From positions 124,001 through 188,000 of the forward strand of contig JAGVKG010000013.1 of NCBI GenBank assembly GCA_020050685.1: DNA of 64,000 nucleotides, written 5' to 3'. This DNA comes from Candidatus Obscuribacterales bacterium. GTDB lineage: Bacteria > Cyanobacteriota > Vampirovibrionia > Obscuribacterales > Obscuribacteraceae. This document shows positions 5,408 through 19,226 of the stretch, piece after piece; position 1 is the first letter of the stretch, and every line of letters begins with the position of its first letter. The notes under the pieces were generated by a model, which was not told the DNA's origin, ran no database searches, and saw only the letters and a list, made by a program, of their open reading frames with translations. Both the position numbers and the translations under genes were made by a program.

Positions 5408-5812
5408 TTAGAGAAACTCGCCCGCCATGCGTACGCGCGAAGGTAATTTCACCTCCGACCACGAACCAAGCGCCACTGACGTGGCTGCTTTCTTCAGGTC
5501 TTTTGCGTACTGCGACAGCAGCGCGAGATCTTCTCTCTTCCTTTCCCAATTACCAACACTTTGCCGTTCAAGTTCGGCGATCAATTGTTCTGCACAGCCG
5601 ATATCGCGCATGGCGATTTCCGCGTAATGACCAAGCTTGACGATAAAGCGATCGTCGCTTGCTTTGCGATAAGCGCGATTGGCCAATTGCAGGCGCATAT
5701 ACGCTTGCGACAGACATTCATAAGCAAGTTCCAAACACGCTTTGCCGAATTCCCTGTTTTTCAAAAATTGATCGATCGACTGATGGTCGAAAGATCCTAA
5801 TCCATCGTCCAT
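5408..5812 (-). CDS. Small helical protein of unknown function, last gene of the metallopeptidase cassette
   Basis: 134 aa from the ATG at 5812, chosen because AGGAGG lies 9 bases upstream; an ATG 24 codons earlier has no comparable site. The sequence is strongly helical, with long stretches rich in Ala, Leu, Arg and Glu (ACLELAYECLSQAYMRLQLA; MRDIGCAEQLIAELERQ). No signal peptide or membrane segment is visible. I do not recognise a family. It is the most distal of four minus-strand genes (9754 to 5408) that include two zinc-metallopeptidase-like proteins; a hairpin lies 37-63 bases upstream of its start. It may be a chaperone, adaptor or inhibitor for that set, but this is only suggested by position. 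Confidence 0.7.
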   Translation of the reverse strand: MDDGLGSFDHQSIDQFLKNREFGKACLELAYECLSQAYMRLQLANRAYRKASDDRFIVKLGHYAEIAMRDIGCAEQLIAELERQSVGNWERKREDLALLSQYAKDLKKAATSVALGSWSEVKLPSRVRMAGEFL

Positions 5813-5848
5813 AGTAGTATGCCTCCTGTTTTGTAGAAGTCTTAGTAA

Positions 5849-5875
5849 AGTGCCGAGACTTAAAGCCTCGGCACT
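5849..5875 (-). terminator. Hairpin upstream of the 134-aa gene
   Basis: Perfect 9-bp stem AGTGCCGAG/CTCGGCACT with a 9-base loop. On the minus strand it is followed by TTTACT, a weak U-run, so it may partly terminate transcription from the 117-aa gene or act as an mRNA processing or stability element. Confidence 0.5.
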
Positions 5876-5922
5876 CGTGTGCATGCAGGGAAAACGAAAT
5901 CCAAACGATGCAGTGCAGCTCG

Positions 5923-6276
5923 CTATTCGACGACTTCTACATAAAACGTGAAAGGCTCGCCTGCGTCTGCCACCATGTCGTCCGGATCGGCATACGGCGT
6001 AACCGTAAGCGAAAGGATGCCCTCGGAAAGATTTTCAGCGGTCAGAAGAACAGGCACTGGCAGCGGTGTTTCCAAAACCATGGTCGGATCGAAATCCGGT
6101 GATTCAGAATCTTGGCTCTCGCGAGTGTCGTTCGGAATCAGGAATCCGAAAACGGACTGGGGAAAGTCGATTTCCACTGCTCCTGCATCGGTTGGGTTAA
6201 TCTCAAGCGCATCACCCGCTTGCATGGTGAATTTTCTTCCGGCTGCGTACTCGTCGATTTGAATTATCTTGGGCAT
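5923..6276 (-). CDS. Small acidic beta-rich protein of unknown function
   Basis: 117 aa, starting at an ATG preceded by GGAGG at a good distance. Acidic overall with alternating hydrophobic residues typical of a beta sandwich (KFTMQAGDALEINPTD; LSLTVTPYAD; EPFTFYVEVVE). No signal peptide. No family recognised. Small beta-rich proteins next to peptidases are often inhibitors: chagasin-type and emfourin-type inhibitors have this size, and emfourin genes sit beside protealysin genes. That makes inhibition of the neighbouring protealysin-like enzyme worth testing, but no diagnostic motif is present. Confidence 0.7.
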   Translation of the reverse strand: MPKIIQIDEYAAGRKFTMQAGDALEINPTDAGAVEIDFPQSVFGFLIPNDTRESQDSESPDFDPTMVLETPLPVPVLLTAENLSEGILSLTVTPYADPDDMVADAGEPFTFYVEVVE

Positions 6277-6329
6277 TCAGATATCCTCCAATGGATAGTT
6301 GTAGGTGGTCACAAATAACTGTGAGGAGC

Positions 6330-6365
6330 GGGGCTCGAGATTCAGACGACAAGCATCTGAACCCC
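6330..6365 (-). repeat. Hairpin between the 664-aa and 117-aa genes
   Basis: Inverted arms GGGG/CCCC (6330-6333, 6362-6365) enclose TTCAGA/TCTGAA (6341-6346, 6356-6361); alternative pairing GCTCG/CGAGC is possible. It is one of several strong hairpins placed between the genes of this cassette. Confidence 0.45.
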
Positions 6366-6410
6366 GAGCTTCCGTTCGCCACAACAAACGAGATTGACAA
6401 ATCAATCACA

Positions 6411-8405
6411 CTAGCTGGGCAATTTTTCGTCGCCTTTGCTATCGTGTTGTTTCTCTTGGTTCTCGCGATCGCGAAGTTGTTTGAGAAGCGCGAAGCTTCT
6501 GTCCTCGACAAACCCAGTTACCGCTTCTGTCGGTTGACCACTTGCCACCATCGCCCAGTTCGCCAATTGCGCTGCTGCACCGATATGGTTCGCGCCACAT
6601 TCAACTTGCGGAAGCAAGAGCGGACGGTTCTCGTCTACAATTATTTCTACAAGTTGATCGATCAGATTTTGGTCTTCCTTGGTGAAGGGAAGCACTTGAG
6701 CTAACGTGTTGCCGGAGAAACACGCAAACTTGGTGTGTTGCAGGATGTACACAGCCACTTTGCCGGCAGCAAGGATGTCCTTGTTGCACTGCTTGAAGAA
6801 GTTGCTTCCATCCTCAGAAAACCAGAGAGCCCACTTAGGCAATCTCTTGCGCTTGGTGATTTGCTTGAAGACTTCGAGACAATACTGCGCATCTTCAGCG
6901 AAGCCCATCATCGCCAACACGTAGCAGTTGAGAATGATGCGCACAGCCGGCGGCAGGTGAGCTTCGTACAGAAGCGCTCCAGTCTGTTTGTCGATCAGAA
7001 ACACTGTCGAATTCGGAATGCTGCGATTGCCATTGGTGAAGACCGTGACATTTTGCTGATCGTTGTATAGAGCAGCAAAATATTCAATCATCGACAAGAC
7101 AAATGCTTTACCGAATCGGCGAATTGCAATGATGTCGGCGTTGAGCTCGTTGAGCACATCTTGGCCGAACAGTTGCATCATCGCTTCTAGTGTATTCCTG
7201 GCATGACCAAAAATATTGATCGTTGCCGAAGAGAATTTCAGATCGCCCGAGAGAAATGCCGTTTGCAGTCCAGCCAAGACAAACTTCTGCGAATCCGGCT
7301 CGTAGTTCTCGAAACCAGCATAGGCGTCGTGTCCGATTTCATGCCCGAAGATCGGCGTCTTGTTCATTTGCATATCTTCAAGATTTCTTGGTCCGAAGAT
7401 AATGTGTGCACCGGGGCAACCAAGCGAACTTCCCAGCGAAGGGATTGTTGCCGGGTCACTATTTTCCGAGAGGCACAAGAACTGATCGCCTTTGCGATAA
7501 CGCGAGCGCGCTCCGCCCTTGATCATCTTTCTGAACGTGTCGACCGCCAGGTACTCTATAATGAACCGCTGACGACGATGGATGTCCTGGAGCACTTGCT
7601 CAAGATACCGACGATAAAGCGTCAACGTTTGCAGGAGTTCCGCGGCTCTGGGATCTTTGTCGATACCATAAATCCGCGCAATCATCACGTTGTCTTCATT
7701 GCCGGTCAGATCCTTGAACTTGCTACAAGCATGTTCAAAGAGCTCGGGCAAGGCTTGCTCATACATCGCCTTCAAGTGATTGGCATTCAGTTGCAGATTG
7801 GCAATTATGCCTTTGGCTTGTAGAGGAGCAAGCTGCTCAACAAGGAATGCATCCTTGCCTTGCAGATCTTGAGCTGATTCCCCAAACACAGCCATCAGTG
7901 GCTGGATCAGTTCTTCAATTGCAGCGCAAAAGCGATCTTCGTTCAATTGCTCTTGAGTGGCCTGAACGATGGATGGACCGGTAGCATCGAGACGCTGATC
8001 CGGCGCAAAACGAATGTCGTCTTCCTCGCTTTCTTCCTCGTCCTCCAAATCTTTGATCGAAAGCAGGCTGTCCGGATCCGCAGGTGTCGGTTGGCTATCG
8101 GCAGCGACATCACCAGAAACGGCAACGCCATTATCAACAATGCCACCACCCTGCATTTGTCCTTGCATCGCAGCCAGCGCTTGTTGTGCTTCAATCTGCT
8201 GCATGACTTCGATGTAATACTGTTCGATACGCAACTTTCCTTCCGCGATTAATTGCGGCAGTTCGGTCAACGTAAATACTTCCTTGCCATCGCCGATAAC
8301 GATCAAAGGACCGCGACGCTCGGTATCTCTGCGCGGAATAAGCGGAACGGAGTGAGCTGGAAGACGCGCGGAAATCGAATTAATAAAGCGCACTTGTTTC
8401 TTCAT
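6411..8405 (-). CDS. Large HEIGH-motif metallopeptidase-like protein
   Basis: 664 aa. Around residue 353 is FGHEIGHDAYAGFENYEPD, an HExGH zinc-peptidase motif (two His ligands and catalytic Glu) inside a helix; the third ligand cannot be assigned by eye. The first ~80 residues are basic and may form a separate domain. Residues ~80-150 are low complexity: a Gln/Met/Gly-rich stretch followed by a run of Glu and Asp (DLEDEEESEEDD). The rest is helical. There is no signal peptide, so it should stay in the cytoplasm or leave by a leaderless route. GGGAGG precedes the ATG. A terminator-like hairpin with six U lies only ~20-50 bases upstream. I know no named family with this architecture; the peptidase role is inferred from the motif. 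Confidence 0.75.
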   Translation of the reverse strand: MKKQVRFINSISARLPAHSVPLIPRRDTERRGPLIVIGDGKEVFTLTELPQLIAEGKLRIEQYYIEVMQQIEAQQALAAMQGQMQGGGIVDNGVAVSGDVAADSQPTPADPDSLLSIKDLEDEEESEEDDIRFAPDQRLDATGPSIVQATQEQLNEDRFCAAIEELIQPLMAVFGESAQDLQGKDAFLVEQLAPLQAKGIIANLQLNANHLKAMYEQALPELFEHACSKFKDLTGNEDNVMIARIYGIDKDPRAAELLQTLTLYRRYLEQVLQDIHRRQRFIIEYLAVDTFRKMIKGGARSRYRKGDQFLCLSENSDPATIPSLGSSLGCPGAHIIFGPRNLEDMQMNKTPIFGHEIGHDAYAGFENYEPDSQKFVLAGLQTAFLSGDLKFSSATINIFGHARNTLEAMMQLFGQDVLNELNADIIAIRRFGKAFVLSMIEYFAALYNDQQNVTVFTNGNRSIPNSTVFLIDKQTGALLYEAHLPPAVRIILNCYVLAMMGFAEDAQYCLEVFKQITKRKRLPKWALWFSEDGSNFFKQCNKDILAAGKVAVYILQHTKFACFSGNTLAQVLPFTKEDQNLIDQLVEIIVDENRPLLLPQVECGANHIGAAAQLANWAMVASGQPTEAVTGFVEDRSFALLKQLRDRENQEKQHDSKGDEKLPS

Positions 8406-8425
8406 GGTGTGTCCTCCCTTAAAGA

Positions 8426-8457
8426 CAAAAAACGCGACATCCGCACAGGGAGTCGCG
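8426..8457 (-). terminator. Terminator-like hairpin in the leader of the 664-aa gene
   Basis: Minus-strand CGCGAC/GTCGCG stem (8452-8457 with 8433-8438) followed immediately by a run of T (8427-8432), then a ribosome-binding site and the ATG at 8405. The geometry is that of an intrinsic terminator placed inside the leader, i.e. an attenuator candidate. Confidence 0.55.
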
Positions 8458-8538
8458 CAAAAAATTGGGGTACTGAGAAATCCAAATAATGGATTTGGTA
8501 ATGATTGATTCGCGCTTCTCCCAGAAATCCGAGCAAGT

Positions 8539-8589
8539 GCGAGACACGGGGGAGGCGGACAATTAAGTCCACCCCCGCCCGTGTCTCGC
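8539..8589. repeat. Strong hairpin between the M4 peptidase gene and the 664-aa gene
   Basis: Perfect 12-bp outer arms GCGAGACACGGG/CCCGTGTCTCGC with further imperfect pairing inside. It lies 47 bases after the M4 stop. No U-run on either strand, so it looks more like an mRNA stabiliser or processing site than a classic terminator. Confidence 0.5.
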
Positions 8590-8635
8590 TTAAGCCAATC
8601 TCACGATTACTCTTGCGAGCATCATGAGAGCGAGC

Positions 8636-9754
8636 TTACTTCTTGTTCTTGATCATGTACTCGATGTCGCACTGTTTCCAGGCTTTATCGAGATTGGTGA
8701 CCAGTTTCGGATTGAGCGACTTGCAAGCGGCGATGGTCGCGTTGTAGAAGTCAACGAAACCAGATTCGCTTCCGAGTCTTGTCGAGGCGTTGTGCCAGAT
8801 CTGACCCAGGCCCACTTCCTTCTTCCAGGTGAGGCCGCCGATGTCGTTGGCGAACAGAGCGAACACGCGGTTCACCGGTCCGGACCAAATGTGCACGCCA
8901 CCATTGTCATACGAGCTGGGCTCGTAGTTGGTGAACGTTGCCGGCTGTGGGTCTTTGCCGCCGAGACGCAGATCGTCATAAGCGGTGCCTGGATGCATCA
9001 TGTCGCGCAGCGACTTGCCGTTGACGTGCTCCGTCCAGATTCCTTTGCCGATGAGCCAGTGGCATGTCGAAGCATCCCATCCCATCATGTACATGAGGAA
9101 GAGAATGCCGCGTACATCGGAGAGGTGCTCGTTGAGAGCGCCGGACTGGTTGGCGTAGGTCAGGTTCGGACCATACTGCGTTACGGCATGACCCCACTCG
9201 TGTCCGATGACGTCCATGAGCATGAACGTCTTGAACATTTGTTGGTCACCGTCGCCGAGCAGTATTTGGTGCTCGTTCCAAGCGGCGTTGTTCCAGCGTT
9301 CATCAAAGTGAACGGTGGTGACCATGTCGGCGCCGTTGCCATCGAAGGAGTTCAAGCCGTAGAACTCGAGCAAGAACTGTTTGAAGCTCTTACCTTCTTT
9401 GCCCACTTCTTGACCGAAGCCGGTCCAGTCATGCGCTTGTTTGACGACTTTGTCTTTGTTGGCTTTTTCGACGAGACCGGTTTCGTTCCAGATCAGTTTG
9501 CCGGGGGCGTTATACCCGTTTTCGGCATCGTGAGTTTTCGGATTGCCTTTGCCGGTGATGGGCGAAGGAGTTTGCTCCTTGTGCCATGCTGGCAAAATCA
9601 ATTGCTCGCGTCTGATTTGGTCGCGCATCTCATCGATGTACGGCAGGTGCAACGGCGAGGGTTCGTTTTCGAACGCCTGGGCGATGTTTTCTTTAATGAA
9701 CGTCGGGATGATGCCCTGACGCTTTGCTTTTGCGGGATCGACTTTCTTACCCAT
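8636..9754 (-). CDS. Protealysin-like M4 (thermolysin-family) metallopeptidase without signal peptide
   Basis: 372 aa. The N-terminus has GIIPTFIKENIAQAFENE, resembling the short propeptide of protealysin-like M4 enzymes (I-I-P-P-[YF]). Catalytic motifs follow in order: VIGHEWGHAVTQY (HExxH-type zinc site, near residue 184), SGALNEHLSD (third zinc ligand Glu, compare GALNEAFSD in thermolysin) and YDNGGVHIWSGPVNRVFAL (the thermolysin NGGVH...SG.. region). Members are zinc endopeptidases; protealysin-like ones lack a signal peptide and act inside the cell or after non-classical release. GGAGG precedes the start, and a terminator-like hairpin lies ~60-110 bases upstream. First gene of the minus-strand cassette ending at 5408. 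Confidence 0.92.
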   Translation of the reverse strand: MGKKVDPAKAKRQGIIPTFIKENIAQAFENEPSPLHLPYIDEMRDQIRREQLILPAWHKEQTPSPITGKGNPKTHDAENGYNAPGKLIWNETGLVEKANKDKVVKQAHDWTGFGQEVGKEGKSFKQFLLEFYGLNSFDGNGADMVTTVHFDERWNNAAWNEHQILLGDGDQQMFKTFMLMDVIGHEWGHAVTQYGPNLTYANQSGALNEHLSDVRGILFLMYMMGWDASTCHWLIGKGIWTEHVNGKSLRDMMHPGTAYDDLRLGGKDPQPATFTNYEPSSYDNGGVHIWSGPVNRVFALFANDIGGLTWKKEVGLGQIWHNASTRLGSESGFVDFYNATIAACKSLNPKLVTNLDKAWKQCDIEYMIKNKK

Positions 9755-9814
9755 GGGATTTTCCTCCAGTGACTCCGAGCTAGCTATCGGAGAGTTGGTG
9801 TGTGATAAACGTGC

Positions 9815-9865
9815 AACAAAAAAGCGGCGCTAACCGCGACCGGAAGGCCACAATTAGCGCCGCTT
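9815..9865 (-). terminator. Perfect intrinsic-terminator-like hairpin upstream of the M4 gene
   Basis: 12-bp perfect arms AAGCGGCGCTAA/TTAGCGCCGCTT (9822-9833 with 9854-9865); on the minus strand the stem runs straight into TTTTTTG. No minus-strand gene is seen further upstream for it to terminate, so it is probably part of the M4 leader. Confidence 0.65.
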
Positions 9866-10703: not shown

Positions 10704-10910
10704 ATGAAATACGAAGTCATAATTTACTGGAGCGAAGAGGATCAGGCCTTTGTTGCCTCGATGCCAGATTTACCAGGCTGCATGGCCGATGGAAAAACCT
10801 ACGAAGAAGCCTTGGCGCAAATTCAAGTAGTGGCCAACGAGTGGATAGCGACCGCTCAAGAATTAGGCCGAGCCGTTCCAAAACCGAAGGCAAAACACGT
10901 TCCGGTCTAA
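10704..10910 (+). CDS. HicB-like antitoxin-family protein (solitary)
   Basis: 68 aa. MKYEVIIYWSEEDQAFVASM followed by PDLPGCMADGKTYEEALAQ is the classic HicB/UPF0150 fold: a partial RNase H-like domain with the conserved P-x-L-P-G-C and a T-Y-E-E-A-L helix. HicB partners neutralise the HicA mRNA interferase, usually encoded directly before or after them. No HicA-like frame is visible on either side, so this is an orphan antitoxin-type protein, perhaps domesticated. The short C-terminal tail ending KPKAKHVPV carries no obvious DNA-binding domain. Confidence 0.85.
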   Translation: MKYEVIIYWSEEDQAFVASMPDLPGCMADGKTYEEALAQIQVVANEWIATAQELGRAVPKPKAKHVPV

Positions 10911-11286: not shown

Positions 11287-12909
11287 ATGTCTTCCATTTC
11301 AGCAAGCTACACCTACGACAATCTGGGACGTCTGATCCAAGTAGACTTTCCTTCTGGCGCAAAAACCACCTACACATATGACGCCGCAGGAAACCGCACA
11401 ACGGTACTCGAAGTTCCTGCAACCTTGACCGGCCCAGAAATGCCTACTGTCACTGCGTTGCCGAAAAAGCAAACTGGTGACTTTAAGAACAACCTAATGA
11501 TGGTTCTCATAAGCAAAGGGGGACAAACAGAACTCGTAGGCTGGGGCGACAACTCAAGCAGCGCCCTTGCTGCCGGCATAACTGGCAATACGACAACTCA
11601 TCGGCAGAAGCTGATGTTTGATCCAAACACCGCAGCTCCCCCGCAGGGAGCAAACATCTCAAAGTGGGCTTTCACTAATGGAGCACTATACGTTGTATTC
11701 TCAAACGGCTGGTGCTATTCCGCTGGCGCCAATGCCTACGGTGAATTGGGGCATGGTGATACAGTTGCACGCGCATACTTAAAGCGAATTGATTATTTTG
11801 TCAACAACAACATATCAATTACTGACGTATGGGCAGCATCATCATATTCCACTACCCAAGGTGGTGGCTGTGTGTATTTCCAGGCCTCAGACTATAAAAT
11901 GTACGGCTGCGGAAAAAACACGGATGGCAACCTCGGAAACACCACCGGCCCAACAACCAACCAAAGCACGCCTGTTGCTTGCGCAAACGTTCCATTCACT
12001 ACAGGCAGTCACGTCATTGATGTTGCTGTTTCCAGCAGCCTAGCCAACTTCAGCGCATACATGTTGCTGAACGACGGTAAGCTAATGGTAGCCGGATACA
12101 ATGCAGTTGGCCAACTCGGCGTCAATAGCACCACGAATGTAACCGGTTCGTTCCAATACGCGAAAAAGTCTACAGGAGTCGATCTCACAAATCTGATATC
12201 ACTATCTGTCAACGGCGGCTACTTCAATGCCGTCGGATGCAATGCGCTCGTAATTGAGAAAATCGACAACAACCCCGCGTCTGTCTGGACTTGCGGGAAA
12301 AACGGCAGAGGCGAACTCGGCATTGGCACCACAACCAACTCCAGCGGCTTCGTTCAAGCGCTACTTTCCGATATCTCAGAAGCAGGGTTGGGTGGTGGCT
12401 ATAACGGCTATGGCTGGGCCAAAACAACCACAGGTCAACTGTACACTTGGGGGTACGGCGGTAAAAGCAATTTGTTTCGAGGCAATACCTCCAACGCGGA
12501 AACTACTCCTCTGCTAGCCACTCTCGCTCCTCCCGGCCTCGTAGCAAGTGTCTTCTTTCCGAAAGGCAACAATTTGGGCACTAATGCTCAAATGATTGTC
12601 CAAATGACTAACGGACAAATTGCCTATGCCGGACTCGACAATGGGCAACTCGGTGTTGATACCACTGTGTCAGGTCATAGTGGTGCGTATAAATATCTCA
12701 TGGCTCCGCGCGATGTGCTTAATGCCACTGAAGTCATTACCGATATCTTCGTGCATGGAACGGGAGCGACTCAGAGGTTGTTCATATTAACGGCTTCTGG
12801 CAACTTGTATGCCAGCGGCAATAATACCGATGCTATTTGTACCGGCGGAATCGCTACAGACTCTGCAATGCCAAATGCGTTCTGGTCCAAGATCAACTTC
12901 CTGCCTTAG
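11287..12909 (+). CDS. YD-repeat plus RCC1-repeat beta-propeller protein
   Basis: 540 aa. The first ~40 residues hold two RHS/YD repeats (YTYDNLGRLIQVDF, YTYDAAGNRTTV). The rest is a chain of RCC1-type propeller blades, recognisable by repeats such as WGDNSSSALAAG, AGANAYGELGHGD, YGCGKNTDGNLGN, AGYNAVGQLGVNS, CGKNGRGELGIG and AGLDNGQLGVD. RCC1 propellers usually mediate protein-protein contacts. No signal peptide. GAGAGG precedes the ATG. The RHS gene follows 50 bases later with its own ribosome-binding site, so the two are probably one operon. The propeller may be a delivery or binding partner of the RHS protein; that is inference. Confidence 0.85.
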   Translation: MSSISASYTYDNLGRLIQVDFPSGAKTTYTYDAAGNRTTVLEVPATLTGPEMPTVTALPKKQTGDFKNNLMMVLISKGGQTELVGWGDNSSSALAAGITGNTTTHRQKLMFDPNTAAPPQGANISKWAFTNGALYVVFSNGWCYSAGANAYGELGHGDTVARAYLKRIDYFVNNNISITDVWAASSYSTTQGGGCVYFQASDYKMYGCGKNTDGNLGNTTGPTTNQSTPVACANVPFTTGSHVIDVAVSSSLANFSAYMLLNDGKLMVAGYNAVGQLGVNSTTNVTGSFQYAKKSTGVDLTNLISLSVNGGYFNAVGCNALVIEKIDNNPASVWTCGKNGRGELGIGTTTNSSGFVQALLSDISEAGLGGGYNGYGWAKTTTGQLYTWGYGGKSNLFRGNTSNAETTPLLATLAPPGLVASVFFPKGNNLGTNAQMIVQMTNGQIAYAGLDNGQLGVDTTVSGHSGAYKYLMAPRDVLNATEVITDIFVHGTGATQRLFILTASGNLYASGNNTDAICTGGIATDSAMPNAFWSKINFLP

Positions 12910-12959
12910 GGCAGCCGATCGCGAAACAAAAACAAATATCACACATAAGGAGAATCAAA

Positions 12960-15900
12960 ATGAACGAAGATTCTAAAAATCTTACGCCAATTGATCCGAC
13001 CAAGTTCGGCATGCTGTCGCAACAAACGGCAACCACGCCAACACTAGCGGAATCATATCGCATGGGTCGCACGTTGCCGAGCAACATCAACCCATCGCCT
13101 ACAAACGAACATGACCTGATCACGGAGCAGACACGCGCGCTAAAAGATGATTTGCAGATCATCTTCCAATATGTCCACAACAACATCAAATTCACGCCAA
13201 CTTATGGTTTGCAAAAGGGTGGACTGGGTGCTCTGATTGACGGGTCCGGCAACGCCTTCGATCAAGCAGACCTTATGGTCCGCTTGCTAACGCAAGCCAA
13301 AGACGCCCAAGGTGCTCCCAAATATACAGCCAACTATGTTCGTGGCTGTATTCTTTTGGATGCATCTCAACTATTCGGCTGGCTGGGAACAACGAATCTC
13401 ACCCGCGCCAGTGAACTTCTGGCAAATGGTGGTATTGGAAACGAGATTTCGGGAAGCCTGCTCAAGCTTGAGCACTGCTGGGTGCAAGTAACTTCAGGTA
13501 CAAACACCTATGTCTTCGATCCAGCTTTCAAACAGCATAACGATGTCTCTGCTATTGCAACGCTAGCGACGTCGCTCGGCTATGACCAGGCAACGTTTCT
13601 CGCCGCGGCCAAGCAGGGCTCTACTCCGACTCCTGCCACTGACTACGTTCAGAACATAAACGACGGAAATATCCAAACTCAAATCAACACGCTCTACGCA
13701 CAACTGATCACGTACATCGAGAATAATATGCCAGGCGCCAGCCTTGCTCAGATCCTCGGCGGACGTTCGATCGTTCCGATTGAAACAAGTGTTGAGCAGT
13801 CGGATCTATCGTACCGCGATACAAACTACACGATGACGATATCGAACACCGTCGACAACAAGTGCAAGTCAATTCTGCAGGTTCAATACGATCACACCGG
13901 CTCTCACTACACCATTGATGTTGCCTTCTTTTCGGCAGACATCTACGAAAAGCGCCTGACGTTGTGGTTCGTTGATGATCAGCAAGATCCAGAATACTTG
14001 ATGGCAAAGCTGCGCTTAGATGGAACTGCGTTAGATACTTCATCTCAGCAAACTGCCGGCAATGAAACTGATATCGTGCTAACTGCATCGCATGCATACG
14101 CAGATTCCTTTGCCGATGCCGTTCAGCAGTTACCGGTTCGCACTGGCGCTCAAACGGCTATCGGATCTGCCTGGGGAACCGCTTCCCCAGACATGGCGCA
14201 GCTTCATCAAATTGCACAGAATGAAGCCATAGCGCTAAACACTCTTGCCGGTGCCGAGAATATGCTTGGTCAATCGCTCTTGCTTATCTGGGACAATTTC
14301 ATTGGCCAAGGATGCAAGGCGCTCGATCTGCTTTCGCGAATGTCCAAGTGCGAAATCGTATTGCACCACTTCGTTGGCACAATCAGCCAACAGACGTTTG
14401 GTGCCAATCGGCGCAATGTGCTCAACTCCTTTCTCGGATGTTGGAGTGGATCTGCCCTCAACGATGACGCAGTAGAGATACCTGCTCTTCGCACAGCGTC
14501 ATCCATGGTTATGCACACCATGGAAGGCGTTGCTCACCAACAAGTGACCGGCGTTAACTGCGCAGGACCCATGCGGATAATCAGGACTGCTAATAGCGGC
14601 ACCAAAGACGCTAATGGCAACAGCAACAATGACCAACGCAAAATCTACCTGGGTACAAGCGCAAACTGGGCCGGTTCGGTCAAACCGGTAATGCAAAATC
14701 CGAACAACCCACCGGTGACACCACCTCCGGTTGCGTACACCACAACAACGCTGGGCGAGATAGAAAGTGAATTCATCAATCGCACCCCAAGCTGGAATGT
14801 GTTGCTCGCCGCGGATGCGGATATCGAGGTCGAAGGTTTCGATGACCAGTCCGATGTACTTTATGCCTATCTCGGCATCAGCTCAGACGGCAATATTGTT
14901 GGAAAGAACTGGCTCAATAGCAAGGGTTCAGTTTCTTCCGGCAATCAAGACGATACTGCAACCAACTCAGCAGCCAGCGACAACGCTAGGCAAGCTAACG
15001 GATTCGGTATGCCATCCGTCACCGCAAGTGAGTCCGCCCGTGTCAACATGCTAAATGGCCGGTACGAATACTCATGCACAGACATGACGGTTGGCAATCA
15101 AGGTGCGCCGTACGAACTATCATTCACGCGCAGTTATAATTCCGCATTGCGCCTCACGCATCAAGGTCTAGGTTTCGGCTGGTGTCACAATTGGCAGATG
15201 AAAGCATCTGAGAATAGTGACGGCTACATGGGCCTTGGTGAGCACAGTGTAATTGCCGGCGCGCCTGCAATTGCTGCATTGTTTGTCACGCTAGACATAG
15301 CAAGAGCAGGATTGGCTGTCGACAACATGGTTATCTTATGCATTGTCCAAGATATTTTGGCATTGCACTTGGTCAACAATGTTGTGCGCTTGCAGACCGG
15401 TGGTGGCACTGCCATCTTCACCAAAATGCCCGACGGTGCGTATCTGCCACCAGGTGGAACAAAAACCGCGGCTCTGCTCACGAAAAATCTGGGACAGTCA
15501 AGCAATGAGGATGATGACTACTTTGTCTACACTACTCCAGATAAAGTGAAGTACACATATTTGCCCACCGGAGAGTTAGACAAAATCGAATATCCATTCG
15601 GAATCACGATTGCTCTAACCTATGAAGGACAAAATATGCGCTTGGTCAAGGTGTCGAACGGTTTTCGCGAACTGAACTTCACCTATGATGTGTACAACAT
15701 CCTCATGTCAGTAAACGACGGTAAAGGCAGAACGGTGCAAATTACCGTTGATGCAAACACCCTCAATCTCACGTCCGTAAGCGATCCTCTACCGGTGAGC
15801 AATACGAACTACGAGTACGTGACAAGCAAGCGTGGTCTACTGAAAAAGATCACCAAGTCCGCTAATCCAACCAGTCCAGTTGTCACAAATGAGCACGACT

Positions 15901-18900
15901 CATTCTACCGAGTGAAGCAACAAACCGACGCATACGGCAATGTCTGGAAATTCTATCTAGCCGGAAGCCGAAGCGAAGAGGTTGCACCTAATGGTGTACG
16001 CCGCATTCTGTACTTCAATTCTAAAGGAAGTACCGTACACAGCAAGAATGTTGCTGATGGGGTTGATCCAATCGCAGGACCAGTGGTGGAATACGATGGC
16101 TTGCAGCGCCCGATCCGCATCACGCAACCAGAAGGCAATAGCACCTCAATGGTGTATCACGCTAACGGAGACGTGCTGTCGACAACCGAGCATGCAAAAC
16201 CGGGCAGCAGCCTGCAGGACAGAACGACATCGTTCTCCTACGGTGATACAAATTGGCCGACAAAGCCAACTTTGATCACCGACGCAGCAGACGCAATGAT
16301 TCTAACGGCCTATCATGCTACTCACGGAAAGCCAATTTCCGTCAAGCAACTAAAACCGACTGATGATCCAGAAGATCCGCCCGCGGATGCTCCGGAAACA
16401 ACCTATGTCTACAACGATAAAGGACAAGTGACCGAAATTCACGTCAAGACAGCGCACAACCCTACGCCGACCCATCTAAAAACGGTCAACGCATACAATC
16501 CAACCTCTTGCAACCTGGTTTCCGCAGCAATGGATCCAGATGGGGTGAATGTTGTGACGCTGTTTCAATATGACGATGAACATAGTCCAGACGAGTTGCC
16601 GGAGGTTGATCGTCCTCCAACTCCTGCTCATAAAATTGGAAATCTTCTGAAGGTTACCGATCCAAAAGGAAACGTTTCACTAGCAGAATACGACGCAAAT
16701 CGTCGCGTGACTCACACGAGAGGCCCGGGACCGTTTCATCAAGAAACATTCATCACATATGACGATAACGGCAACGTTATCGAAACGCGCAGCTTAACTT
16801 CCACCGATGTCAACACCCAGGTGACGCAAACAACGTACACTATAGACAGCAAGGTGGAAACAGTAATCGGGCCGGATAACTTCCCGCAAGGAAGTCAGCC
16901 GGTGCCCGTGCGTTACGTATATGATGAACTCAGACGGTTGAAATCGGCTACCGATCCTCAAGGTCATGTGGTCACTCCCATATACGACATCATCAGTAGA
17001 ACTATCGGTTCCGCCGTAGATGGGGTCACGCAGCAATCGGTTGCTTATACGCTTAACGGCAAAATCGCGTCTGTTACCGATGCACGTAACAAGACCACCA
17101 CGTTCCAGTACGACGACTTCGATCGCCCAACGAAAATAATCCATCCAGATTCTTCCGTCGAGGAAATCTCCGAGTACGATGAACGCGACAACGTGAAGAA
17201 ATCAAAAACCAGAGCCGGGCATGAGTACAACTTTGCATACGATGAGTTCGGTCGTCTTGCGAGCAAAACTCCTCCAGATGGCAGTGGGCTGCCTATCGCG
17301 AGTTTCACTTACGACCTGGCAAGCAGACCGGAGACAATCTCCACGCCTATCGTATCCGACGACCCGTCAACAGGAACATTCACCATGTCCTACGACAGCG
17401 TCGGGCGCATGACGAAGGAGACATATCAACGAGGACAAGATGAAACACGGGTCGTGGAAGCCTCGGTTCTAGACAAACACGGCAATGTGTTGCAATTGAA
17501 ATATCCCGACGGATCAATTGTCACAAATACCTTCGACCAACTCGATAGACTAACCTCTATTTCCGGTTTCGGTGCAAGCACCTCTTTTGCTTACGACTCC
17601 GCCTCTAGGCGCATGTCTCAGCTTAACGGTAATGGCACCGGACAAGGTTATTTCTTCGACAAGGTCGATAGCTTGCTTGCAATGTGCATCGGTGGCCTCA
17701 AGCCGAACTCGTCGCTTGGCACTCCTCCGCAAGTTCAACTTGCGTACAGTCTAAGTGACCTGGCTCAAAACGTCAGCAAAAGGTGTAACGATGCCAACTT
17801 CCTCTGGCAACCAACCGGTGAAGAAAACAGGACATTCGTCTACACCCAAGCCAACGATATCAACCAATATCCTTCCGTCGACGGTGTGCCGTTCACCTAT
17901 AACAGCAACGGTTGCCTCACAAACGATGGTGTCAACACCTACGCCTATGACATTGAAAGTAGGTTGGTGTCTGTCACCAACAGCGGTGGCATCGTTTCCT
18001 TCAAGTACGATCCTCTCGGTCGACTTGTTGAGAAAACCGTCGGCTCAAACAAAGTGCGTTATCTCTATTCCGGCATGCAACGGATTGAAGAATACACTAA
18101 CGGCACTTTATCGCGTCGCTATGTCTGGGGTGCTGCGCTTGATGAATGCCTTTTCGTTGTCGATGAGCCTAGTGATACTCTCACTTATCTCCACGCTGAC
18201 GAAACCGGTTCCACTATCCTCATCACAGATTCCACTGGAACTCCGATTCAACGCAACGCCTACACTCCATGGGGAGAACTTGCTTCCGGTTCGCTGTCCA
18301 ATATATCGGTCGGCTTCACCGGGCAGTTCTACATTCCTGAAACTGATCTCTACTTCTTCAAAGCTCGCTTCTACTCACCCAAGCTAGGCCGCTTCCTCCA
18401 ACCCGATCCCATCGGCTACGAAGGCGGTCCCAACTTGTACGAGTACTGTGGCAATGATCCGATTAACTTCAGCGATCCCATGGGTTTATGGAGTCCGGCT
18501 GATGGTCCTTTACAGGGCTTTATATCGAATGACCCTTTTCCACTGGGTAAGTTGATTGGAGATTTCGGCGATGCCATAACTCAAACCATGCGCTTGATCC
18601 AGGGATTAAAATCTCTGTTTGGTGGTCCAAATATATCTTCCTTTGAATCTCAATTCAACCAATTCATCAGCATGATGAATGAGCTGACGAAGGGGCAAGC
18701 CGCTTATGCACAGGCTACGACCCATTCTTCACCTGTGGGTACTGAGAGCGCCTCTCAGCACATCTTGCAAAATGGAAGCGTCTCGTTAACTGCGGATCCG
18801 CTTGTTGGTCCAAGTTATAGTGATTTTGATCCCTACGCTGCTGCCAAACATCTGAACATCGACATCAAAGCCGAGCGGCGCTATGCGCACAGTATGAATA

Positions 18901-19226
18901 CTCCATCAACTCTATGGAAGTTTCGTCCCGGTGGACATTTTGATTTCAAGCACAAATTCACCCCTGGTACTGCGGATTATCAACTCGCCACAGATCTAGC
19001 CAACTGGTTCTATGGTGATTACATGGTTGATATAGGCTGGCCGTATGCTGTCGCCAAAGCGGGAGCGGGCGGTGTTCAGATTATAACAAGCACAACAAGC
19101 CACATAGAGAAATGGGTCGGCAAGCCCTTTCACCACTATCGCAAAGCAACACACTTGGGATCTTGGCAGGATTGGCTTGACGGACCAAGAGACTCAAAGA
19201 TAGTGGACATCGGGTACGGAAAATGA
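12960..19226 (+). CDS. Giant RHS/YD-repeat protein with transglutaminase-like N-terminus and variable C-terminal tip
   Basis: 2088 aa from the ATG at 12960, preceded by AAGGAG. Residues ~60-190 resemble the transglutaminase-like domain found in RHS proteins: the His (LEHCWVQV) and Asp (VFDPAFK) regions are present, but the usual active-site Cys is absent (GSGNAFDQADLM), so this domain is probably inactive. Near residue 690 an RHS entry region begins (NGRYEYSCTDMTVGNQGAPY), followed by many YD repeats to ~1780. The RHS core (FYSPKLGRFLQPDPIGYEGG, near 1805-1845) is followed by ~245 residues of tip. Such shells enclose a C-terminal toxin or effector released after the core. The tip contains WKFRPGGHFDFKHKF, vaguely like polymorphic toxin type 44; this match is weak. 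Confidence 0.9.
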   Translation: MNEDSKNLTPIDPTKFGMLSQQTATTPTLAESYRMGRTLPSNINPSPTNEHDLITEQTRALKDDLQIIFQYVHNNIKFTPTYGLQKGGLGALIDGSGNAFDQADLMVRLLTQAKDAQGAPKYTANYVRGCILLDASQLFGWLGTTNLTRASELLANGGIGNEISGSLLKLEHCWVQVTSGTNTYVFDPAFKQHNDVSAIATLATSLGYDQATFLAAAKQGSTPTPATDYVQNINDGNIQTQINTLYAQLITYIENNMPGASLAQILGGRSIVPIETSVEQSDLSYRDTNYTMTISNTVDNKCKSILQVQYDHTGSHYTIDVAFFSADIYEKRLTLWFVDDQQDPEYLMAKLRLDGTALDTSSQQTAGNETDIVLTASHAYADSFADAVQQLPVRTGAQTAIGSAWGTASPDMAQLHQIAQNEAIALNTLAGAENMLGQSLLLIWDNFIGQGCKALDLLSRMSKCEIVLHHFVGTISQQTFGANRRNVLNSFLGCWSGSALNDDAVEIPALRTASSMVMHTMEGVAHQQVTGVNCAGPMRIIRTANSGTKDANGNSNNDQRKIYLGTSANWAGSVKPVMQNPNNPPVTPPPVAYTTTTLGEIESEFINRTPSWNVLLAADADIEVEGFDDQSDVLYAYLGISSDGNIVGKNWLNSKGSVSSGNQDDTATNSAASDNARQANGFGMPSVTASESARVNMLNGRYEYSCTDMTVGNQGAPYELSFTRSYNSALRLTHQGLGFGWCHNWQMKASENSDGYMGLGEHSVIAGAPAIAALFVTLDIARAGLAVDNMVILCIVQDILALHLVNNVVRLQTGGGTAIFTKMPDGAYLPPGGTKTAALLTKNLGQSSNEDDDYFVYTTPDKVKYTYLPTGELDKIEYPFGITIALTYEGQNMRLVKVSNGFRELNFTYDVYNILMSVNDGKGRTVQITVDANTLNLTSVSDPLPVSNTNYEYVTSKRGLLKKITKSANPTSPVVTNEHDSFYRVKQQTDAYGNVWKFYLAGSRSEEVAPNGVRRILYFNSKGSTVHSKNVADGVDPIAGPVVEYDGLQRPIRITQPEGNSTSMVYHANGDVLSTTEHAKPGSSLQDRTTSFSYGDTNWPTKPTLITDAADAMILTAYHATHGKPISVKQLKPTDDPEDPPADAPETTYVYNDKGQVTEIHVKTAHNPTPTHLKTVNAYNPTSCNLVSAAMDPDGVNVVTLFQYDDEHSPDELPEVDRPPTPAHKIGNLLKVTDPKGNVSLAEYDANRRVTHTRGPGPFHQETFITYDDNGNVIETRSLTSTDVNTQVTQTTYTIDSKVETVIGPDNFPQGSQPVPVRYVYDELRRLKSATDPQGHVVTPIYDIISRTIGSAVDGVTQQSVAYTLNGKIASVTDARNKTTTFQYDDFDRPTKIIHPDSSVEEISEYDERDNVKKSKTRAGHEYNFAYDEFGRLASKTPPDGSGLPIASFTYDLASRPETISTPIVSDDPSTGTFTMSYDSVGRMTKETYQRGQDETRVVEASVLDKHGNVLQLKYPDGSIVTNTFDQLDRLTSISGFGASTSFAYDSASRRMSQLNGNGTGQGYFFDKVDSLLAMCIGGLKPNSSLGTPPQVQLAYSLSDLAQNVSKRCNDANFLWQPTGEENRTFVYTQANDINQYPSVDGVPFTYNSNGCLTNDGVNTYAYDIESRLVSVTNSGGIVSFKYDPLGRLVEKTVGSNKVRYLYSGMQRIEEYTNGTLSRRYVWGAALDECLFVVDEPSDTLTYLHADETGSTILITDSTGTPIQRNAYTPWGELASGSLSNISVGFTGQFYIPETDLYFFKARFYSPKLGRFLQPDPIGYEGGPNLYEYCGNDPINFSDPMGLWSPADGPLQGFISNDPFPLGKLIGDFGDAITQTMRLIQGLKSLFGGPNISSFESQFNQFISMMNELTKGQAAYAQATTHSSPVGTESASQHILQNGSVSLTADPLVGPSYSDFDPYAAAKHLNIDIKAERRYAHSMNTPSTLWKFRPGGHFDFKHKFTPGTADYQLATDLANWFYGDYMVDIGWPYAVAKAGAGGVQIITSTTSHIEKWVGKPFHHYRKATHLGSWQDWLDGPRDSKIVDIGYGK

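Follow-up and report, generated by a model that had tools for sequence, protein, structure and literature searches.

A conserved pairing of a protealysin-like M4 peptidase gene with a member of an apparently undescribed protein family in Candidatus Obscuribacterales

Introduction

Among the closest described counterparts of the locus considered here is the protealysin-emfourin operon of Serratia proteamaculans, in which a leaderless M4 peptidase gene stands beside the gene of a small inhibitor, emfourin (PF20242; about 100 residues), and protealysin itself has been described as intracellular (PMC9505478). A second point of reference is neprilysin, of peptidase family M13, whose residues His583, Glu584, His587, Glu646, Asp650, His711 and Arg717 have known roles (PMC2259306, PMC7822871). 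The locus that we describe likewise places a leaderless protealysin-like M4 gene beside a partner gene, and the M4 precursors of related genomes likewise carry a short PPxxL-type propeptide; unlike emfourin, however, the partner is a protein of 620-750 residues, here called HEIGH, in which catalytic-type residues are laid out much as in neprilysin. Intracellular protein turnover in the Obscuribacterales is an unstudied subject, and a literature search on proteases in Obscuribacter and the Obscuribacterales returned nothing on an M4-HEIGH locus. The conserved pair offers specific, testable genes in an uncultured, cyanobacteria-related order.

The locus and its genes

The window is a 64,000-nucleotide stretch of a Candidatus Obscuribacterales genome (GCA_020050685.1, contig JAGVKG010000013.1), to which all coordinates refer unless a locus handle precedes them. 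A sequence-only reading had placed four open reading frames on its minus strand, and direct inspection finds them there:

8636..9754, minus strand: protealysin-like M4 metallopeptidase zymogen, 372 aa (Pfam, PDB, motif spacing)
6411..8405, minus strand: HEIGH-family protein, candidate zinc peptidase, 664 aa (family alignments, AF2 model)
5923..6276, minus strand: 117-aa orphan protein, outside the conserved unit (relatives not found; AF2 model)
5408..5812, minus strand: 134-aa orphan protein, outside the conserved unit (relatives not found)

As had been noted, good ribosome-binding sites of the AGGAG/GGAGG type precede all four starts, and none of the four proteins has a signal peptide: a Kyte-Doolittle scan, which is a hydropathy heuristic rather than SignalP, found no N-terminal hydrophobic segment in any of them, or in the relatives of M4, of HEIGH and of the M1 aminopeptidases introduced below. 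A longer start for the 134-aa frame exists at 5884; we place the start at 5812 because an AGGAGG site supports that position.

The M4 peptidase

The gene at 8636-9754 is the sole M4 gene of the window genome. Its product matches PF02868 (1e-32) and PF01447 (3.8e-18), both above the Pfam cut-off, and its nearest solved structure in a PDB sequence search is 2vqx (E 3e-54), which bears out the earlier description of the enzyme as protealysin-like. The catalytic residues are intact, comprising HEWGH, the third-ligand Glu at +24 (EHLSD) and the catalytic His in GGVH (GGVHI). A hydrophobic N-terminus is absent; relatives begin with the propeptide motif GIIPPYxLL, which we take to be what a protealysin propeptide should show, and the window protein carries a weaker version of it (GIIPTFIKENI).

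Two minor observations concern this gene. An open frame of 382 aa runs antisense across its whole length (8624-9772, plus strand) and is probably due to chance, since codon scoring comes out in favour of the M4 strand. Three genomes of a single genus (G026:C88, G041:C20 and G034:C417) each carry a pair of M4 genes on one contig, separated by about 0.4-1.4 kb, which suggests a recent expansion.

The HEIGH family

The large partner had been singled out as new, and we find it to belong to an undescribed family. Models of Pfam, NCBIfam, PADLOC and PHROGs all fail to match it, as do PDB sequence searches. Relatives within the same bacterial family are about 18-28% identical to the window copy, compared with 37-46% for M4, such that in the window genome HEIGH diverges much faster than its neighbour; among themselves the relatives are mostly about 40-56% identical. 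Of 53 Obscuribacterales genomes (families f1 and f2), 44 are hit by a profile built from 39 members, against 0 of 187 genomes elsewhere in the class, and a phylum-wide sample of 291 other genomes gave a single borderline hit (E 9e-4). Where relatives have named records, these are MAGs assigned to Candidatus Obscuribacterales, Obscuribacter and Melainabacteria, although the named-genome search used a narrow pattern, so that rarer distant members elsewhere are possible. The protein is under purifying selection (dN/dS about 0.06-0.25 in four pairs). In a tree, the window copy forms a very long branch that groups with M4-linked members, and HEIGH paralogues lacking M4 fall for the most part into clades of their own. 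For the window protein, the AlphaFold2 model (mean pLDDT 82, pTM 0.79) returned nothing below E 0.1 from the PDB in Foldseek, a search that small shared cores can escape, and no similar structure was found in BFVD.

What the members share is a set of residues. Alignments show that HExxH, ExxAD and HxPxxxR are conserved across the family and are not a chance motif, the candidate site of the window protein consisting of H355, E356, H359, E420, D424, H483 and R489. In window numbering, H359, E420, D424, H483 and R489 do not vary among 39 divergent members. All seven residues are found in 35 of the 39, and in the other four HExxH is replaced by HExxxH. Counting from the first His, the Glu mostly lies 64 residues on, the His of HxPxxxR mostly 59-65 residues beyond the Glu, and the Arg at +6 from that His; in genuine M13 genes from these bacteria the corresponding values are 61, 64 and +6. 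The HExxxH paralogues (GHEVGGH) form a clade of 513-550 aa proteins that keep ExxxD and HxPxxxR-type motifs, and are encoded at the following places:

L053:3558-5126, HExxxH HEIGH paralogue
L054:6858-8399, HExxxH HEIGH paralogue
L056:7028-8680, HExxxH HEIGH paralogue
L057:561-2102, HExxxH HEIGH paralogue

A further subfamily of about 950-1050 aa (L060:5629-8727 and L061:6445-9339) is present in each of the order's two families and is possibly the ancestral form; its L060 member contains a weak Rho_N-like stretch.

Comparison with known zinc peptidases

The catalytic-type residues of HEIGH (HExxH, ExxxD, His, Arg) fall in register with those of M13, and membership of that family was considered and rejected: the motif register fits, but neither HMM searches, nor profile-profile comparison, nor Foldseek supports it. 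Members of HEIGH have no match to PF01431 in Pfam scans, lack a signal peptide or membrane anchor by hydropathy, and continue for about 170 residues past the H-R motif. In M13 the substrate-binding motif NAFY sits about 41 residues before HExxH, and it was not found at the matching place among the conserved columns of HEIGH. Neither hmmsearch nor hhalign detected homology to M13, M4, M1 or M49. Against M13, hmmsearch did no better than with shuffled sequences and hhalign stayed below 1%; by the same profile procedure M13 and M4 join each other at 73%, and the subgroups of HEIGH all join at 99% or more.

Other assignments fare no better. M49 differs from other zinc peptidases by this very replacement of HExxH with HExxxH, and one HEIGH subfamily resembles dipeptidyl peptidase III in having HExxxH with an ExxAD-type motif; M49 membership is nonetheless rejected, since the window protein has HExxH and the family shows no profile match to the PF03571 members of related genomes. 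With thermolysin (M4, clan MA(E)) HEIGH shares a Glu as the putative third ligand and an acidic residue four positions on, but its spacings are about 64 and 63 where M4 has 24 and 78, and homology is not detectable. As neither homology nor a fold match was detected, we would place HEIGH outside M13, as an undescribed family whose catalytic-type residues are laid out in a neprilysin-like manner. We further suggest, tentatively and with the balance of our judgement somewhat against it, that this is a new cytosolic zinc-peptidase family of one order, which came to a neprilysin-like active-site layout on a fold outside the PDB, radiated into HExxH, HExxxH and approximately 1000-aa forms and took a protealysin-type enzyme as partner. 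Should HEIGH be active, the zinc peptidases would gain a family without detectable relatives, and the layout HExxH / ExxAD / HxPxxxR would have an independent case.

Conservation of the M4-HEIGH pair

In 19 of the loci read, M4 precedes HEIGH on the same strand, 99-4993 bp away, and the coordinates in two further genomes (G004 C140 and G027 C4) give the same order. The co-occurrence expected by the sequence-only reading is therefore present in part: the pair is found in 21 genomes from 14 Ca. Obscuribacterales genera, while the two small genes of the window are singletons. We conclude that both the pair and the HEIGH family are real and conserved, and apparently undescribed.

Order and strand of the pair stay constant while the intervening genes come and go. 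Acyl-CoA dehydrogenase genes intervene in about 11 loci; genes for proteins of 628-810 aa between M4 and HEIGH had been considered as a possible paralogue and proved to be these dehydrogenases. A Pfam-less protein of 470 aa lies between the two at a few loci. In about 15 loci, one or two genes for leaderless M1 aminopeptidases lie upstream in divergent orientation, and genes for MORN-like repeat proteins are often found downstream. At the window locus the M1, acyl-CoA dehydrogenase and MORN neighbours are absent, the two M1 genes of that genome being on another contig. Flanking genes that we name HDAC-like and Dam-like, from sequence rather than by family search, are common to the window and several relatives, which indicates that the genomic place of the pair is old. 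Half of the HEIGH members read have no M4 neighbour, and there are also M4 genes without HEIGH in their vicinity.

Hairpins between the genes

Every gap of the window locus had been said to hold a strong hairpin:

9822..9865, minus strand: 20-bp hairpin with T tail, intrinsic-terminator-like, between the upstream region and the M4 ribosome-binding site (z -5.5)
8539..8589, minus strand: highly stable hairpin between M4 and HEIGH (best 60 nt at -48 kcal/mol)
8432..8457, minus strand: short hairpin and then a T tract, immediately before the HEIGH ribosome-binding site
6330..6365, minus strand: hairpin downstream of HEIGH (-31.9 kcal/mol)
5849..5875, minus strand: hairpin between the two orphan genes, near window background

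All five exist in those places, but they are less special than was supposed, two being near the background of the window. The gap sequences fold better than shuffled versions (z -5.5, -10.4, -3.1, -3.7 and -4.0); 14 of the 22 measurable gaps of the window nevertheless contain a 60-nt hairpin of -20 kcal/mol or lower, the median for coding sequence is -19.5 kcal/mol, and only those at 9822-9865, 8539-8589 and 6330-6365 stand clearly above this background. With their T tails, 9822-9865 and 8432-8446 resemble intrinsic terminators; 6330-6365 is a probable transcript end. Relatives in which the two genes are directly adjacent repeatedly have a stable hairpin between M4 and HEIGH, at -29 to -42 kcal/mol in seven loci and at -22 kcal/mol in an eighth whose gene start is uncertain, these energies being uncorrected for the base composition of the relatives. 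Such strong gap hairpins argue against simple co-transcription, and the recurrent one may reflect partial termination or processing between the genes.

Proposed function and alternatives

The reading we prefer, and which we would judge to come close to an even bet, is that the conserved unit is the pair itself, namely a leaderless protealysin-like M4 zymogen followed by an order-specific zincin-like HEIGH protein, acting together as a cytosolic proteolytic relay. By analogy with neprilysin, H355, H359 and E420 of HEIGH would bind one zinc ion, E356 would serve as the general base, D424 would orient a zinc ligand, and H483 together with R489 would hold the substrate carbonyl. Once matured, M4 would make internal cuts in the cytosol, HEIGH would trim the peptides so released, and the last steps would fall to the leaderless M1 aminopeptidases usually found beside the locus. 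The window locus would then be a decayed or changed version, with its usual neighbours lost, a very long HEIGH branch, and two orphan genes occupying the place of the MORN-like genes of relatives. The conservation of seven residues, the M13-like spacing, purifying selection, synteny (including the recurrent M1, acyl-CoA dehydrogenase and MORN-like neighbours) and the missing signal peptides all support the relay, as do the description of protealysin as intracellular (PMC9505478) and the grouping of the window HEIGH with M4-linked members. It is weakened by the fact that homology of HEIGH to known peptidases goes undetected though that between M13 and M4 is detectable, as well as by the half of the HEIGH members read that lack an M4 neighbour, the strong hairpins in the M4-HEIGH gap and the location of the window genome's M1 genes on another contig. 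If HEIGH is an active peptidase, it would also be a second kind of genetic partner for protealysin-like enzymes, besides emfourin.

Gene order and adjacency also resemble the protealysin-emfourin operon (PMC9505478), and, as the main alternative, HEIGH could be a dedicated regulator of M4 (a maturase, inhibitor or immunity partner), taking the role that emfourin has in Serratia while M4 acts as an effector or stress protease. The rapid divergence of HEIGH relative to M4 in the window genome is consistent with such a role, as is the distribution of emfourin: the window genome has M4 and no emfourin (PF20242) above cut-off, and the genuine emfourins found in 20 of 50 relatives lie on contigs without an M4 hit (including L139-L146), so that they may have other targets in those relatives. 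A pure inhibitor, however, would have no need of the catalytic-type residues that 35 of 39 HEIGH members retain, and many HEIGH genes and some M4 genes occur without the other nearby; we regard a regulatory role as unlikely, if still to be reckoned with.

Slightly less likely again, in our estimation, is that the pair is an old neighbourhood kept by vertical descent and functionally unlinked. All cases do fall within a single family of one order, several loci have additional unrelated genes in common beside the pair (the HDAC-like and Dam-like ones), and acyl-CoA dehydrogenase genes have been inserted without an obvious link. Yet order and strand have been kept in all 21 genomes and 14 genera despite HEIGH identities that have fallen to 20-56% and the turnover of intervening genes.

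The small proteins and other genes of the window

The sequence-only reading had held a peptidase-plus-inhibitor logic of the four genes to be plausible, with the 117-aa protein as a possible inhibitor of M4, and although that protein is encoded near M4 and is predicted, with low confidence, to be all-beta, we consider the idea very improbable and reject the four-gene cassette as unsupported, because neither small protein has relatives in 50 genomes of the same family (best E 0.05 for the 117-aa and 0.016 for the 134-aa protein, both short partial matches) or in viral contigs. The 117-aa protein was also examined as a possible emfourin and rejected, PF20242 being unmatched in Pfam and absent from the locus in a whole-genome model run, while relatives' emfourins are unlinked to M4. 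Its AF2 model contains beta strands only (pLDDT 59), and is poor enough that the lack of a Foldseek match is uninformative.

Two plus-strand features lie near the locus. A 68-aa protein with a HicB-like antitoxin domain (PF15919) is encoded at 10704-10910, with no HicA seen beside it, and the stretch 11287-19226 holds the gene of a 2088-aa RHS-repeat protein and, ahead of it, that of a 540-aa protein in which an RHS repeat is combined with RCC1 repeats.
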